A stretch of DNA of 64,000 bases from Chloroflexota bacterium (GTDB lineage Bacteria; Chloroflexota; Anaerolineae; Anaerolineales; Villigracilaceae). Both the position numbers and the translations under genes were made by a program. Of this stretch, positions 388 through 64,000 are shown in pieces; position 1 is the first letter of the stretch; the number at the start of each line of letters is the position of its first letter. Below the pieces are notes generated by a model. It searched no databases. It was not told the DNA's origin and saw nothing but the letters and a program-made list of their open reading frames with translations. Location of the stretch: contig JAIOAU010000004.1 of NCBI GenBank assembly GCA_019873655.1, positions 1 through 64,000 on the forward strand, in the 5' to 3' direction.

Positions 388-505
388 TTAGATTATAACC
401 CTCACCTCCGTTCCCTCGCCGGGGGCGGAGCGGACCTCGAAGCGGCCGTTGAGCATCTCCATCTCCTCTAGATCGCGTTCATGACCTTCCTTCGCGTCAA
501 TTCAT
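388..505 (-). pseudogene. 3' remnant of a histidine kinase (G2-box end of the ATPase domain)
   Basis: In frame on the minus strand this reads NGRFEVRSAPGEGTEVRVII and stop. It is the C-terminal end of a HATPase domain and closely matches the last residues of the intact kinase ending at 1241 (GGRFEVRSAPGEGTEVRARW). DNA identity is high over roughly 50 bases near 400-450. Upstream the frame stays open only to about 505. The rest of the kinase is missing, replaced by the PIN gene pair. It differs enough from the intact copy to be a paralogue's tail rather than a fresh duplicate. Confidence 0.8.
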
Positions 506-1240: not shown

Positions 1241-4200
1241 CTACCACCTCGCCCTCACCTCCGTCCCCTCCCCGGGGGCGGAGCGGACCTCGAAGCGGCC
1301 GCCGAGGGCCTCGACGCGCTCGCGCATCTGCCGCAGGCCGAAGTGACCGCCGCGCTCGCGGCGCGGCAGGTCGGCCGGGTCGAAGCCGACGCCGTCATCG
1401 CGCACGGCAAGCGAGACGCCGTCGGTCAAATCGAGCCGCACCTGCACGCTTCGCGCCCGGGCGTGCTTGGCGGCGTTGTGCAGCGCCTCCTGGACGATGC
1501 GGAAGAGGGTCGGTTCGAGGGCCGGGGGCACGCGGCCGCGCTCGCCCTGGACTTCCAGCGAGACGGCCAGACGGTTCTGCTCGCCGAACTCGGCCAGGAA
1601 CTTCTCCAGCGCGCCCCAGAAGCCGAGGGTCTCCAGGTCCACCGGGCGCAGGGCGAAGAGGACGCGGCGCACTTCGCGTATTTTCTCGCCCAGGAGGCGG
1701 TGCAGGCCGTCCAGTTCGGCCCTGGCCCGGGCCGGGTCGCGCTCGATGAGCGCCTGCCAGGTCCGTACCTGCAGGCGCAGGGCGGCCAAGTCTTGCGCCA
1801 GGCCATCGTGAATCTCGTGGGCGATGCGGCGGCGCTCCTCGGCGATGGCCTGCTCTTCGGAGCGGCGCGCCTTCTCGGCGGTGATGTCCTCCACGACCAG
1901 GATGCCGCGGCGCAGGTCGCCGGGCGGGGCGGAGGCGACGCTCAGGCGCAGGGGGATTTCGCTGCCGTCGGCGCGGCGGCCGACGGTTTCCAGCGTGAGG
2001 GTCTCGCCGGCAGTCAGCGCGAGGCGGCAGCGCGCCAGCGTCTCGGCGGGCAGGCAGGAGGAAAGGATTGTAGGACAGCCTTTCAAGGCTGTCCCTTTCG
2101 AGACTGTCTCTTCTGTTTCGACAGGCTGGAAAGCCTGTCCTACGCCGAACAGTTGCGCCCAGCGCGGGTTGAGGTGACGCGCCAGGGGCGGCTCCTCGCT
2201 GAAGTCGGCCTCGCAGACGCCCACCGGGGCGTTCTCGAACAGGGCGCGGAAGCGGGCCTCGCTCCGGCGCAGGGCGGCCACATAGCGCATCCGCCCGCCG
2301 ATGTACACCGAGGCCAGTCCCAGAACCGCCAGCCCGACGAGCAGGCGGAACCACCAGGTCTGCCAGAAAGCCGGCGCGATGACCACCGTCACAGCGACCC
2401 CCTCCTCGTTCCAGACGCCGTCGCTGTTGGCGGCCTTGACGCGGAAGAGGTAGCGGCCGGGCGGCAGGTTGGTGTAACTGGCGTAGCGGCGCGCGCCGCA
2501 GTAAATCCAGTCGGGATCGAAGCCCTCCAGGCGGTAGGCGTACTGGTTGCGGGCCGGGTCGGTGAAGTCGAGGGCGGCGAACTCGAAGGAGAAGAAGTTC
2601 TCGCGGTGGGTCAGGCGGATTTCGGCGCCGTTTTGCAGGCCGCCCTCGAAGGCGCGCGGCTGGTCGAAGACGCGGAAGGCGGTCAGGACGACCGGCGGCG
2701 GGACGGGATTGGCCGTCAGGCGCGCCGGGTAGAAGGCGTTGAAGCCATTGACGCCGCCGAAGAACATCTCGCCGTCGGCGGCGCGGGAGGCCGCGCCGAT
2801 GATGAAGGCTGTCCCTTGCAGGCCGTCGGCGGGGGTGTAGGCGCGCGCCGCGCCGGTGGCCGGGTCGAAGACGGCCAGGCCGCCGCCCATGGTCGCCAGC
2901 CAGAGTTTGCCGGTCTCATCGCCCAGGATGGCGACGATGGAGTCGTCCGGCAAGCCGTTCTCGGTGGTGAAGACGGTGCAAGACGGCTCACAGGCAGCGG
3001 GTTGGCCGCACAGCCATTCCAAGCGGTTCAGCCCGGCGTGCGTGCCGACCCAGAGCGTCCCATCCGCGCCCTCGTAGAGCGACCAGACGAAGTCGTGGCT
3101 CAGGGCGCGCGGATTGGCCGGGTCGGCGCGGTACTGGACGAAGGTTTCGGTTCGAGGGTCGAAGCGGACGAGGCCGTTGTAGACGCCGAGCCAGAGCGCG
3201 CCGTCGCGCGTCTGAATCAGGGCGCGCACGCCGTAGGTGTTGGGGAAGCCGTCCGGCGCGCCAGTGTAGGCGTAGCGGGTGAGCGCACGGGTCCGAGGGT
3301 CGAAGCGGATGAGGGCGCCGGGTTCTTCCGTCCCGATCCAGAGCGCGCCGTCGGCGGCCTCGAGGATGACCTTGACCGCGCCGCCGCCGTCCCAAGCGAA
3401 ATGCTCGAAACGGTCGGCGCGGCGGTCGAGGCGGTCGAGACCGGCCTGGGTGCCGATCCACAGGTCGCGGCGCGAGTCCTCGTAGAGGGCGGTGACGTGG
3501 TCGTGGCTAAGGCTGGACGGGTCGGCGGGGTCGTGGCGGAAGTGGGTCGCCTGGCCGGTGCGGCGGTCGAGGCGGTCGAGGCCGCCGTCGTGCAGGCCGA
3601 CCCAGACGAAGCCCTGGGAATCCTTGAGCACCGCGCCGACGACCGGGGCGGCGAGCGAGTTCGGATCGCCGGGGCGGGGGGCGTAGTGGTCGAAGCGCAG
3701 GCGGGCGCGGGCGTACTGGCTGACGCCGCCGGCGGTGGCGATCCACAGGTTGCCGCTGCGGTCGAGGGCCAGGGCATTGACGGCGTCGCTGCTCAGGCTG
3801 AAGGGATCGAGCGGATCGCGGCGGTAGGTTTCGAGGCGGGCGTAGGCCGGGTCGAAACGGTGCAGGCCGTCGGCGCTGCCGAGCCAGAGCGATTCGCCAT
3901 CCCACAGGAGGGCGGCGACCTGCTGGCCGCGCAGGGGTTCGTAGAACTCGCGGTAGGCGCGGCGGAGGCGGTCGAAGCGCGCCAGGCCGCCGCTTTCCGG
4001 CTGGTGGTAGTCGCCGCCGCCGACCCAGAGACTGCCGTCGGGGGCGAGCGCCAGGGCGGCGACGCGCGTCAGGGACGGCGCGCCGGCTCGACTGCGCTCG
4101 CCGGAACCCGGCGGCGGGTCCGGGAAGGATGCGAAGCGGCCGGTGCGGGGGTCGAGGGCGGCCAGTCCGCCGTACTCGGTCCCAATCCAGAGCGTCCCGT

Positions 4201-4759
4201 CGTCATCGAAGAGCAGGGCGTTAATGTGGTCGTCGGGCAGACTGGCGGGGTCGGCCGGGTCGTGCAGGAACTGGAGGAAAGTCTCGGAGTCTGGGTCGTA
4301 GCGGAAGAGGCCGCTGCCGGCGGTGCCGATCCAGAGATGACCGGCGGCGTCCTCGGCAAAGGCGCGCACCGATTCGTAGACTTCGGGGTGGTGGACGAAA
4401 CGCCCGCTGGCGGCGTCGTAGTGGTCGAGGCCGCTGACCGTGCCGACCCACAGGCGGCCGCGGCGGTCCTCGAACAGGGCGGCGACGGTGTCGTTGACGA
4501 GCGAGTCAGGGTCCGAGCGGCGGTGGCGGAAGACGGTGAAGGTGTAGCCGTCGTAGCGCGCCAGGCCGCGCTGGGTGCCGAACCACAGGTAGCCGGCGCG
4601 GTCCTGCAGGATGCAGTTGACCAGATCGTGCGGCAGGCCGTCGGCGCTGGTCAGGCGGGTGAAGCGCAGGCTGGATTGGGCGGCGACGGGGGAGGCGGCG
4701 AGGAGCAGGGCGCAGGCCAGCGCCGCGCAGAGCAGACGGACGAGGCGGCGGGCGTTCAT
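1241..4759 (-). CDS. Two-component regulator propeller sensor histidine kinase
   Basis: About 1172 residues. A signal peptide (NARRLVRLLCAALACALLL) leads into a long periplasmic beta-propeller built of repeats such as 'DRAGYLWFGTQRGLARYD' and 'LWIGTQAGLDRLDR', then a Y_Y_Y domain (YAYRLEGFDPDW), one membrane helix near residue 805, a PAS region, a HisKA_3 dimerisation box (RRRIAHEIHDGLAQDLA, about residue 975) and a HATPase end (DDGVGFDP, HFGLRQMRERVEALGG). The HisKA_3 type normally pairs with NarL-type regulators; the only one nearby is the remnant at 272-385. ATG 4759 is chosen; TTG 4771 adds four residues. An extended -10 (TGCTACAAT, 4783-4791) sits just upstream and no Shine-Dalgarno is visible. 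A palindromic repeat is inserted in frame in the PAS region (2070-2143). Confidence 0.93.
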   Translation of the reverse strand: MNARRLVRLLCAALACALLLAASPVAAQSSLRFTRLTSADGLPHDLVNCILQDRAGYLWFGTQRGLARYDGYTFTVFRHRRSDPDSLVNDTVAALFEDRRGRLWVGTVSGLDHYDAASGRFVHHPEVYESVRAFAEDAAGHLWIGTAGSGLFRYDPDSETFLQFLHDPADPASLPDDHINALLFDDDGTLWIGTEYGGLAALDPRTGRFASFPDPPPGSGERSRAGAPSLTRVAALALAPDGSLWVGGGDYHQPESGGLARFDRLRRAYREFYEPLRGQQVAALLWDGESLWLGSADGLHRFDPAYARLETYRRDPLDPFSLSSDAVNALALDRSGNLWIATAGGVSQYARARLRFDHYAPRPGDPNSLAAPVVGAVLKDSQGFVWVGLHDGGLDRLDRRTGQATHFRHDPADPSSLSHDHVTALYEDSRRDLWIGTQAGLDRLDRRADRFEHFAWDGGGAVKVILEAADGALWIGTEEPGALIRFDPRTRALTRYAYTGAPDGFPNTYGVRALIQTRDGALWLGVYNGLVRFDPRTETFVQYRADPANPRALSHDFVWSLYEGADGTLWVGTHAGLNRLEWLCGQPAACEPSCTVFTTENGLPDDSIVAILGDETGKLWLATMGGGLAVFDPATGAARAYTPADGLQGTAFIIGAASRAADGEMFFGGVNGFNAFYPARLTANPVPPPVVLTAFRVFDQPRAFEGGLQNGAEIRLTHRENFFSFEFAALDFTDPARNQYAYRLEGFDPDWIYCGARRYASYTNLPPGRYLFRVKAANSDGVWNEEGVAVTVVIAPAFWQTWWFRLLVGLAVLGLASVYIGGRMRYVAALRRSEARFRALFENAPVGVCEADFSEEPPLARHLNPRWAQLFGVGQAFQPVETEETVSKGTALKGCPTILSSCLPAETLARCRLALTAGETLTLETVGRRADGSEIPLRLSVASAPPGDLRRGILVVEDITAEKARRSEEQAIAEERRRIAHEIHDGLAQDLAALRLQVRTWQALIERDPARARAELDGLHRLLGEKIREVRRVLFALRPVDLETLGFWGALEKFLAEFGEQNRLAVSLEVQGERGRVPPALEPTLFRIVQEALHNAAKHARARSVQVRLDLTDGVSLAVRDDGVGFDPADLPRRERGGHFGLRQMRERVEALGGRFEVRSAPGEGTEVRARW
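2070..2143. repeat. Palindromic repeat inserted in frame inside the propeller kinase
   Basis: GTAGGACAGCC at 2070 and GGCTG..AGCCTGTCCTAC ending at 2143 are the same family as the intergenic repeats at 6623, 14776 and 18137. Two facing copies are separated by a short spacer. The kinase frame reads straight through it, giving GQAFQPVETEETVSKGTALK, between WAQLFGV and LPAETLARC. This breaks a PAS-like region by roughly 25 residues without stopping translation. Confidence 0.9.
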
Positions 4760-4877
4760 AGGCAGGCGCAAGAGACATATTTATTGTAGCACGGCAGACC
4801 TTTGAAAAGAACGGCGGGGCGAGAAAACGGCCTTTAAAATTATTAAAGTTGAAATCAAAATAATTGAAATATACATA

Positions 4878-5378: not shown

Positions 5379-6626
5379 ATGCAACAGCAAACCATCTCGG
5401 TTGACCCCGGCCTTCCGGTCCGGGTGAGCGCGGTCGCCGGCGATCTGCGCGTGGCCGGCTGGGAGCGCGCCGAAGTGATGGCCAAAACCGACGGCGACCG
5501 CCTGACGCTGGTCGTCGAAGACGGCGAGGCGCGCGTCGCCTGCGACGAAAATCTGATTCTCTATCTGCCGCGCGCCGCCGCGCTGATCGTCGAAAGCGTA
5601 GCCGGCGACGCCAGCCTGCAGGCCCTGCACGGTCCGCTGCGCCTCGGACCCGTGGCCGGCGACGTGACCATGAACGACCTCGGCCCGGTGGACGCCGAGA
5701 CCATCGCCGGCGACGCCTCCCTGCGTCATGTCGGCCCCTTCTCGGCCAAATCCATCTCCGGCGATTTCGTCCTGCGCGGCTGCAAGGGCGACTGCGTCCT
5801 CGAAACGGTCGGCGGCGACGCCTCCCTGCGCGACGTGGAGGGCCGCCTGGTCATTCAGAGCGTCGGCTCGGACCTGTACGCCCGCGGCGTGCGCGGCGGC
5901 GTCAATGTGAGCGCCGGCGCGGACGTGACCCTCTACCTCGAACCGGGCCCCAACGGCCTCTACCACGTCTCGGCCGGAGATGACCTGCTCCTCCGCCTGC
6001 CAAAGGATGCCCAGGTGGAACTGCATCTCGTTGGCAGCGATCCCCAAAATATCCAGGTGGATATTCCCGGCGTGGAACTCTCCGGCGACGCCAGCGCGTA
6101 TGACCTCGTCCTTGGGCCGCAGACGGAAAACATCGCCAAAATGCATCTGACCGCCGGCGGCGATCTGCTGGTCACCAGCCGGGCCGACGCCTGGGACTCG
6201 GCCGCCGAGTTCGGCGTCGGCATGCGCGACGCCTCCGAGTGGAGCATCCCCGAAGTCCCGCCCATTCCTCCCATCCCACCCATCCCGCCCGACCTTTCGG
6301 AGCGCATCAACCGGCGCGTCCAGGCGGCGATGGAGCGCTCGCGCGAGCGCGTCGAGGCCGCCTCGCGGCGAGCGGAAATCAAAGTCGAGGCGGCGATGCG
6401 CCGCGCCGAGGCGAAGGCGCGCGCCGCCGAGGTCCGCGCCCGCCGCGGCCAGGTGCAGATGAACATCGGCCGCTGGAACTGGGACCTGACCCCGCGCGGC
6501 CCGGTCGAGAAGGCCGACGCCGTCACCGAAGCAGAACGGCTGCAAATCCTGAAGATGCTCCAGGAGAAGAAAATCACCGTCGAAGAGGCCGAGAAACTCC
6601 TGGCCGCCCTGGAAGGCAAGTTGTAG
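5379..6626 (+). CDS. DUF4097 beta-strand repeat protein with C-terminal SHOCT-like hairpin
   Basis: 415 residues. The first 270 form a repetitive beta-rich (adhesin-like) solenoid with recurring 'AGDASLR', 'GGDASLRD' and 'SVAGDLRV' turns, the DUF4097 pattern. A proline linker (PPIPPIPPIPPD) leads to an Arg/Glu/Ala-rich predicted coiled coil (about 310-370) and a terminal hairpin (ILKMLQEKKITVEEAEKLL). DUF4097/SHOCT proteins occur in envelope-stress systems (LiaX/YvlB type); that role is inferred. No signal peptide or membrane helix is visible. It follows the DUF2089 gene by 3 bases. Its stop codon TAG (6624-6626) is the first TAG of an intergenic repeat, so the repeat fixes the C-terminus. 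Confidence 0.88.
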   Translation: MQQQTISVDPGLPVRVSAVAGDLRVAGWERAEVMAKTDGDRLTLVVEDGEARVACDENLILYLPRAAALIVESVAGDASLQALHGPLRLGPVAGDVTMNDLGPVDAETIAGDASLRHVGPFSAKSISGDFVLRGCKGDCVLETVGGDASLRDVEGRLVIQSVGSDLYARGVRGGVNVSAGADVTLYLEPGPNGLYHVSAGDDLLLRLPKDAQVELHLVGSDPQNIQVDIPGVELSGDASAYDLVLGPQTENIAKMHLTAGGDLLVTSRADAWDSAAEFGVGMRDASEWSIPEVPPIPPIPPIPPDLSERINRRVQAAMERSRERVEAASRRAEIKVEAAMRRAEAKARAAEVRARRGQVQMNIGRWNWDLTPRGPVEKADAVTEAERLQILKMLQEKKITVEEAEKLLAALEGKL

Positions 6627-6732
6627 GACGGCTTGTCCAGGTTGTCATAACAACAGAATCCTTTCGTAGGACAGCCTTTCCAGGCTGTCATAACAACAGA
6701 ATCCTTTCGTAGGACAGCCTTTCCAGGCTGTC
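6623..6732. repeat. Three copies of the GTAGGACAGCC palindromic repeat, 43-bp period
   Basis: Copies start at 6623, 6666 and 6709. Each is GTAGGACAGCC, a TTTCCA-type loop and GGCTGTC, separated by a 19-base linker that is itself conserved (ATAACAACAGAATCC plus TTTC). The first copy is diverged. It fills the gap between the DUF4097 gene and the next gene and supplies the TAG stop of the former. The hairpins could attenuate or protect the operon mRNA; this is a guess. Confidence 0.9.
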
Positions 6733-6752
6733 AGAACAGAAGGAGAATTCCG

Positions 6753-13229: not shown

Positions 13230-13390
13230 GCCACGAATTTCTCGAATTTTTTCGTGTCATTCGTGCAATTCGCGGCAAAAAATACCCTTCGTTTCATTCG
13301 TGTAATTCGTGGCAAAAAATATCCTTCGTGCAATTCGTGGCTAAAAATATTCTTCGTGCCATTCGTGCAATTCGTGGCTAAAAATTAAGA
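13230..13390. repeat. Tandem 'CGTGxAATTCGTGGC' repeats between MFS and tldD
   Basis: The segment contains four imperfect units built from ATTCGTG and AATTCGTGGC plus a poly-A stretch (AAAAAAT). It occupies the whole gap between the transporter stop and the tldD ribosome binding site (AAGAAAGGAG). A different family from the GTAGGACAG repeat. Confidence 0.85.
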
Positions 13391-14775: not shown

Positions 14776-14848
14776 GTAGAACAGGCTTTCCAGCCTGTTA
14801 GTAGAACGGGCTTTCCAGCCTGTTTGTAGGACGGGCTTTCAGCCCGTC
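14776..14848. repeat. Three GTAGxACxGGC palindromic repeats between tldD and tldE
   Basis: Three units begin at 14776, 14801 and 14826: GTAGAACAGGCTTTCCAGCC and variants, the last being GTAGGACGGGC..GCCCGTC. They are the GTAGGACAG family but with sequence-matched arm changes (CAGGC/GCCTG versus CGGGC/GCCCG), which keeps base pairing. Confidence 0.88.
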
Positions 14849-14863
14849 AGGAGCGAGATAATC

Positions 14864-18101: not shown

Positions 18102-18136
18102 ACTTACTCCTGTAATTTGCTTGTAGGACAGGCTTT

Positions 18137-18487
18137 CTAGCCTGTCCGATAAACAGCCTGGAAAGGCTGTCCTACCTAGCCTGTCCGATAAACAGCCTGG
18201 AAAGGCTGTCCTACCTAGCCTGTCCGATAAACAGCCTGGAAAGGCTGTCCTACCTAGCCTGTCCGATAAACAGCCTGGAAAGGCTGTCCTACCTAGCCTG
18301 TCCGATAGACAGCCTGGAAAGGCTGTCCTACCTAGCCTGTCCGATAGACAGCCTGGAAAGGCTGTCCTACCTAGCCTGTCCGATAGACAGCCTGGAAAGG
18401 CTGTCCTACCTAGCCTGTCCGATAGACAGCCTGGAAAGGCTGTCCTACCTAGCCTGTCCGATAAACAGCCTGGAAAGGCTGTCCTAC
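18137..18487. repeat. Nine-copy 39-bp tandem array of the GTAGGACAGCC palindrome
   Basis: Exactly 9 units of 39 bp (351 bp) fill the gap between the TetR stop and the epimerase gene. Each unit is CTAGCCTGTCCGATARACAG followed by CCTGGAAAGGCTGTCCTAC and contains the hairpin ACAGCC..GGCTGT. Units differ only at one position: A in units 1-4 and 9, G in units 5-8. Because 39 is a multiple of three, the minus strand is open throughout (13-codon period). No spacers are present, so it is not a CRISPR. One edge supplies the TetR stop codon. Confidence 0.97.
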
Positions 18488-57425: not shown

Positions 57426-59784
<2,359 letters not shown>

Positions 59785-63404: not shown

Positions 63405-63898
63405 TATGGCTTTAACTGCAACCCAACTTCTTAATAGACAGCCAACCCACCATCCTGAGCGCTTGCACGCCAAGGCGCTGAAGGGTGGACTGTCTGCTCA
63501 CTGAAACCTGAGATTCTTTTTCGATAGCGCGGCTTTCCACTGTCCACAGTATACATACGGATTCCCCTTTTTTCAACAGGGAATTGAGGCTTTCTCTCAG
63601 CAATCGCCATCTCCGGACACTATTACTTGGATGCGACGGATTTGTGGACTTCCAGATCGGCCTTTGCTTTATCCAAAGGAAGGTCGCCAATGCCCTTTCT
63701 GTGCCGCTTTGTTCCTGTCTATGAAATCAAAGGGTCAGCTGGCCAGTCTGGCATCGTGACTGCAGAAAATGTCGTCCATGGAATATTGGGGCATGTTTGA
63801 TATCCTTCTATGAGATAAGTCCACCCGCGCCAAAACTCTAGCATGACGAGCCATCTTTCCCCCGCCAACTTTCTACAGACAGGTCTCCAAACCTGTTA
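63405..63898. other. AT-richer flank of the cassettes; no gene supported
   Basis: A long hairpin-forming sequence lies at 63443-63502 (GACAGCCAACCCACC against GGGTGGACTGTC, with AGCGC/GCGCT inside). It looks like the core of a decayed attC but lacks an R'' box. A minus-strand open frame (63412-63690) runs through it but has no Shine-Dalgarno and no recognisable motif. No integrase is seen. ACAGGT..ACCTGT at 63879-63896 is a small palindrome. Confidence 0.4.
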
Positions 63899-64000
63899 TA
63901 ACAGGATGGCAAACGAGTCTTAACAGGATTACAAACGAGTCTTAACAGGATTACAAACGAGTCTTAACAAGATTCCAAAGCAGTTAGAACAGGATTGCCA
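63899..64000. repeat. 22-bp tandem repeat at the window end
   Basis: Units 63899-63920, 63921-63942, 63943-63964 and a diverged 63965-63986, then a partial fifth to 64000. Consensus TAACAGGATTACAAACGAGT plus CT. It continues outside the window. No spacers, so not a CRISPR. Confidence 0.9.

Follow-up and report, generated by a model that had tools for sequence, protein, structure and literature searches.

Palindromic repeats headed by GTAG, the GTAG REPs (repetitive extragenic palindromes), were described in 2013 by Di Nocera et al. (PMC3733652), along with their head-to-head (HH) dimers, their copies in open reading frames (ORFs) and their occurrence in Chloroflexi. According to that description, they have a stem of 6-13 bp and a short loop, HH dimers lie 20-100 bp apart, and copies in ORFs are a minority that codes for 20-30 residues. 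REPtrons, in which a transposase is linked to the repeat, can be missing in the same account, so a linked REP-associated tyrosine transposase (RAYT) is taken here as an associated feature, not a strict one. We analysed a window of 64,000 nt from a Chloroflexota assembly (GenBank GCA_019873655.1, contig JAIOAU010000004.1, positions 1 to 64,000; the assembly, hereafter G000, has 3.04 Mb in 45 contigs). At 2070-2143 it contains two facing GTAG-headed hairpins within the gene of a sensor histidine kinase, the frame of which is uninterrupted.

Both arms are 24 nt long and 88% complementary: REP unit 1 occupies 2120..2143 on the minus strand, with its GTAG head at 2143, and REP unit 2 occupies 2070..2093 on the plus strand, with its head at 2070. 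Between them lies a spacer of 26 nt (2094..2119). The plus unit begins with GTAGGACAGCC and the facing one with GTAGGACAGGC, one base apart. Their stems of 9 and 8 bp, with loops of 4 nt, fall within the described range, and the segment 2066-2146 folded as single-stranded DNA gave z = -5.5. The window has 16 matches to the 11-mer of the repeat at ≤1 mismatch, as against 0.70 expected, and none of 100 shuffles reached 16; the 15-mer GTAGGACAGSCTTTC has 32 exact copies in the G000 genome, and its reversed control has none. The GTAG end is common to both window units and to these 32 copies. The repeat is multicopy, with 21 clusters in G000 and 32 in G038, a genome of the same genus, and it forms dimers; 23 of the 27 adjacent opposite-facing pairs are HH, with GTAG outside. 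On these grounds the window element reads as an HH dimer that shows the features of GTAG-tagged REPs, a likeness judged by the features described in PMC3733652, where 24 families are distinguished; it differs in that no linked RAYT was found for the kinase repeat. A palindromic repeat in frame at 2070-2143 was what the original prediction had proposed, and the arms, the copy counts and the open frame bear it out.

REPINs, as presented by Bertels and Rainey (2011, PMC3116915), are likewise inverted REP doublets, capable of forming a hairpin and mainly extragenic, but here no linked RAYT was found and clusters number about 20-30, versus hundreds. A literature text search with 11-mers of the repeat returned matches only in papers of unrelated title. 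What we describe is no new class of element, but a clear-cut though unremarkable example of a kind of repeat already described.

The host gene (1241..4771, minus strand) encodes a Reg_prop propeller, Y_Y_Y, PAS_8, HisKA_3 and HATPase_c on one protein. Its ORF stays open through the repeat and measures 1176 amino acids from a TTG codon, or 1172 from an ATG four codons further on. The insert accounts for 25 codons, V877-T901 (2069..2143, minus strand), that is, the 74 nt of the repeat plus one base; its translation, VGQAFQPVETEETVSKGTALKGCPT, occupies residues 877-901 and immediately follows WAQLFG. The PAS_8 match (residues 839-878; 2138..2257, minus strand, as computed from the ORF) ends where the insert begins, and downstream in the protein profile matches place HisKA_3 at residues 979-1046 (1634..1837, minus strand) and HATPase_c at residues 1086-1175 (1247..1516, minus strand).

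Three near orthologues of the kinase were identified, in G038 and in G012 and G013, which belong to other genera. The G038 protein is 84% and 79% identical to that of G000 on the two sides of the insert (about 80% in another alignment), the G012 protein about 75-77% and the G013 protein about 72-75%; in G018, also of the same genus, the best relative of the kinase is just 42% identical. In G038 an insert lies at the same site, composed of three forward units with a 48-nt period followed by one reverse unit; it is 102 nt longer than that of G000, and the frame is open. Between LFG (FA in G038) and the conserved L-[ST]-x-x-LP there are 26 residues in G000, 7 in G012 and 8 in G013, and the PAS_9 match spans the site in the two latter proteins. 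In G038 it starts downstream of the site, as it does in the G000 segment; the score in the latter is weak (E 0.046). Alignment with orthologues was the test suggested for an insertion into the PAS region: G012 and G013, genomes in which the repeat is at background level, have a loop of 7-8 residues in place of the insert, and the outcome that would have spoken against an insertion, the same extra residues in orthologues from genomes free of the repeat, did not occur. The insertion differs in length between the two species, G000 and G038, and the predicted gain of about 25 residues holds for the encoded count, the net gain over the clean orthologues being 18-19. The same site with another length in G038, together with the clean orthologues, identifies the kinase insert, as judged from sequence comparison, as an inherited insertion with a local change in copy number.

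We therefore consider it very probable that a GTAG REP dimer entered the kinase gene before the two species split and has been kept as a disordered loop in a kinase under purifying selection. We count as observations the dimer and its family, the site common to both species, the orthologues without the insert, the open frames and the selection estimate; the course of events that would join them runs as follows. Before G000 and G038 diverged, a head-to-head dimer would have landed in the PAS domain, in the loop that follows LFG; 7-8 residues would have been replaced or displaced there, and the frame left without stops. Its copy number would then have changed by local duplication or loss, through slippage or recombination, to the one dimer of G000 and the three forward and one reverse units of G038. 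Insertion itself may have been the work of a REP-type transposase (RAYT/TnpA_REP) acting by a single-strand mechanism. In the protein the insert would form a disordered loop at the surface, with kinase function tolerated, not tuned.

Among 152 genomes of the family, exact copies of the 15-mer were found in six: G000 (32), G038 (35), G021 (27) and, as single copies, G012, G431 and G441; G013 has none, and the reversed 15-mer gave single matches in three of the 152. At ≤1 mismatch there were 53 copies in G000, 66 in G038, two each in G012 and G013 and five in G323 (reversed controls 0, 2, 1, 1 and 0, respectively). The counts for G012 and G013 are near those of their controls, and the repeat is thus at background there; in G018, the sister species in the same genus, no copy was found at this threshold (control 1). 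G021 represents a third genus carrying the repeat, with many of its copies at contig ends. A 24-mer occurred in two of 301 genomes sampled across the phylum, the sample being without G038 and G021. A near form, GTAGGACAGGCTTCC, has 14 copies in G358, a genome labelled Verrucomicrobiota (Limisphaerales).

The 53 elements of G000 and the 66 of G038 form the 21 and 32 clusters mentioned above. Neighbouring elements are head-to-tail in 39 of 66 cases, and in a fixed register 8 or 9 of 9 positions are paired in 31/53 elements of G000 and 45/66 of G038, an undercount that misses copies with a shorter loop. For 14 of the 21 G000 clusters both flanks were collinear in a fetched G038 locus; the other seven were unmatched among the fetched loci, which make up part of the G038 genome. 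Thirteen of the 14 collinear sites, the kinase site among them, hold a G038 cluster between the flanks, and the spans were unequal at all 14, by -311 to +331 nt. With 13 clusters at common sites and every span unequal, the comparison of this pair of genomes points to repeat sites that are mostly inherited and to copy number as that which changes. The exception is a plus-strand cluster of three 25-nt tandem copies at 14776..14850, the G038 counterpart of which is just 28 nt long and has no cluster. Three 43-nt tandem copies at 6623..6751 (plus strand) face a site with a cluster also in G038. At 18123..18487 one plus unit is followed by nine minus units with a 39-nt period, and the collinear G038 site carries a two-unit cluster; the nine 39-nt tandem copies at 18137-18487 match at 99%, and this array is a recent local expansion. 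REP positions in this lineage are accordingly old, with copy number turning over.

Is the kinase still functional? Between G000 and G038 (1132 codons), the ratio of nonsynonymous to synonymous substitution rates (dN/dS) is 0.32 for the whole gene and 0.31 for the kinase part, which on sequence grounds gives no sign of decay there; the two sides of the insert in the PAS part have 0.24 (before) and 0.51 (after). For the clean pair G012-G013 the respective values are 0.28 (whole), 0.28 (kinase), 0.43 (PAS before the site) and 0.42 (after), and in pairs with a clean partner the whole gene has 0.28-0.35 and the part after the site 0.32-0.50. The catalytic blocks are retained. A predicted model of residues 826-1176, built from seven sequences, has a mean predicted local distance difference test score (pLDDT) of 78.4 and a predicted template modelling score (pTM) of 0.43. 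In it the blocks of the insert (segment residues 52-76) score 30-61 and residues 54-74 lie below 50, while the PAS blocks flanking the insert score 79-92; the model of a clean orthologue (mean pLDDT 81.8) agrees in strand order, and its PAS domain has no stretch below 50. In Foldseek the best solved matches come from LOV/PAS histidine kinases (best E 4e-16); their whole-chain TM-scores are low, near 0.35, so the domain types are supported and their arrangement is not. The insert is thus probably a floppy or disordered surface loop on a PAS fold predicted to be intact, and such a PAS loop would tolerate from 25 to about 59 extra-coded residues.

Several observations weigh against our interpretation. 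The PAS_8 match in G038 is under the cut-off, and the empty site is unclean at the base level, with 7-8 other residues there in the clean orthologues. The 102 nt by which the kinase inserts differ are divisible by three, but so are the differences at 6 of the 13 other sites, and we made no use of the frame-length argument. Besides, dN/dS is higher in the PAS half after the insert than in the kinase part, and this second, sensing half is conceivably under mildly relaxed selection, to judge by the sequences. Lastly, no transposase gene was found adjoining GTAGGACAGSCTTTC in the loci searched.

The strongest of the rival explanations holds that the insert inactivates PAS sensing and that the kinase is decaying or has been rewired as a constitutive enzyme. 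The broken PAS profile match would agree with it, as would the value of 0.51 for the post-insert half between two carriers; however, G000-G013, a pair with one clean partner and no insert in common, reaches 0.50 in that half as well. Full-length open frames in both carriers, the dN/dS of 0.31 in the kinase part and 0.24 in the pre-insert PAS part, and the predicted fold argue against inactivation, which we regard as unlikely. That the insert might abolish sensing, as first suggested, found no support at the level of sequence: with the frame open in two species, the kinase blocks kept, an overall dN/dS of 0.32 and a PAS fold predicted intact, the kinase has probably not been abolished.

Still less probable is the adoption of the repeat-coded loop for a role, with array length tuning the sensor, although two species retain an insert at the same site, in frame and of different length. 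Arrays also change length at collinear intergenic sites, where none of 13 shared clusters is equal in span, and the insert lies in a low-confidence loop that appears unstructured in the model. We give little credence to the idea that frame-neutral changes by 48-nt units let lineages vary the loop length without breaking the kinase, which would make a slow tuning device out of a mobile hairpin. An assembly or binning artefact might be suspected in metagenome assemblies, since repeats break them, as the many G021 copies at contig ends indicate, but two separate assemblies agree on the site, the open frames and DNA flanks 85-88% identical, and we rejected it as highly improbable. Equally remote is membership in the Rickettsia palindromic elements, a kinship raised by the original prediction and not upheld: these too are palindromes read in frame inside genes, but they occur in other bacteria and those of the RPE-4/RPE-6 type carry a CGTC tag according to PMC3733652, instead of GTAG, on which ground they were rejected, and the repeat was otherwise found here in Chloroflexota, with the near form in the one Verrucomicrobiota-labelled genome; the resemblance is limited to in-frame reading.

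In-frame copies of the repeat within a gene were seen in two more cases elsewhere in the two genomes. In G000 a CHAT-AAA-TPR protein has repeat-coded residues from position 674, and its closest relative, at 42% identity a weak empty site, lacks them. In G038 a LUD/4Fe-4S protein (L225, G038:C69, 2383-4470, minus strand) carries several repeat-coded units in an interdomain linker, residues 480-513, after a LutB_C-like segment; the G000 orthologue (81% identity) has no repeat and a different low-complexity linker. The inserts in all three genes use the V-G-Q frame. A spanning ORF with both flanks coding-like (coding score ≥0.3, on rough gene calls made in this analysis) was found for 5 of 53 clusters, two of 21 in G000 and three of 32 in G038, whereas the rough coding fraction of the window is 0.83; the repeat is mostly between genes, as expected of GTAG REPs. 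This count of genic clusters is a lower bound: 28 of the 53 have some spanning ORF, of which 12 were checked against Pfam (the two kinases and ten others) and 16 were unchecked. ORFs over the clusters in L202, L219, L230, L231 and L206 had no Pfam family match. L207 and L209 were discarded as in-gene cases, the repeat preceding the likely start, as was the permease gene in L221, where a lone one-mismatch match may be due to chance. For the survival of a REP dimer in a gene the kinase is a well-documented example, with a site shared by two species, clean orthologues and an in-frame array change at that place.

A search for a mover was made around transposase genes and around the repeats. Five Y1_Tnp places exist in G000, none of them flanked by the GTAG repeat. 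Over six genomes, 18 of 19 Y1_Tnp loci were scanned (L189 was omitted), several of them ending at contig ends, and no copy was present at ≤1 mismatch; matches with two or three mismatches in L188, L003, L004 and L191 were dismissed as weak and different from the kinase hairpin. Neither the 64 repeat-bearing loci nor the 20 fetched G021 repeat loci gave a transposase-like match, and in G358, which has eight Y1_Tnp places and, in this comparison, 15 near-form copies, the nearest to a near-form copy is at about 3.2 kb. As no transposase adjoins GTAGGACAGSCTTTC in the loci searched, a RAYT as its mover is inferred from the family. The survey also shows which G000 repeats have no visible mover; other palindromes of this genome do have transposases beside them. 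The NCBIfam model of REP-associated transposases (NF047646, cut-off 80) was passed by the proteins of L004 (118.3) and L005 (85.0), that of L003 being below it (71.1), and both passing genes are flanked by palindromic repeats of their own, unlike the kinase repeat. In L004 (G000:C6:125910-129119) the gene stands at 926-2369 amid 11-12 copies of a repeat with the core CGGACGGCAGTTGGACTGCCGTCCG, likely a REPtron of its own; in L005 (G000:C44:6693-8994) it lies at 1219-2195, flanked by hairpins of GTGGTGCAGGTCTTYGACCTGC; these repeats are a third family that has a transposase to itself. L001 (G000:C13) encodes an IS200-type protein, and GC-rich palindromic units form a direct array just upstream of this transposase gene, at about 1034-1400.

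Downstream of the kinase gene, window positions 397-468 encode a stretch of 24 residues 79% identical to the C-terminus of the kinase (residues 1151-1174), possibly a remnant of a duplicated 3' end. The window also contains tandem arrays unrelated to the GTAG repeat, at 13251-13385 (TTCGTG units of 35-65 nt), 57431-57495 (GACGATT units of 7/14 nt) and 63886-63996 (units of 22/44 nt).
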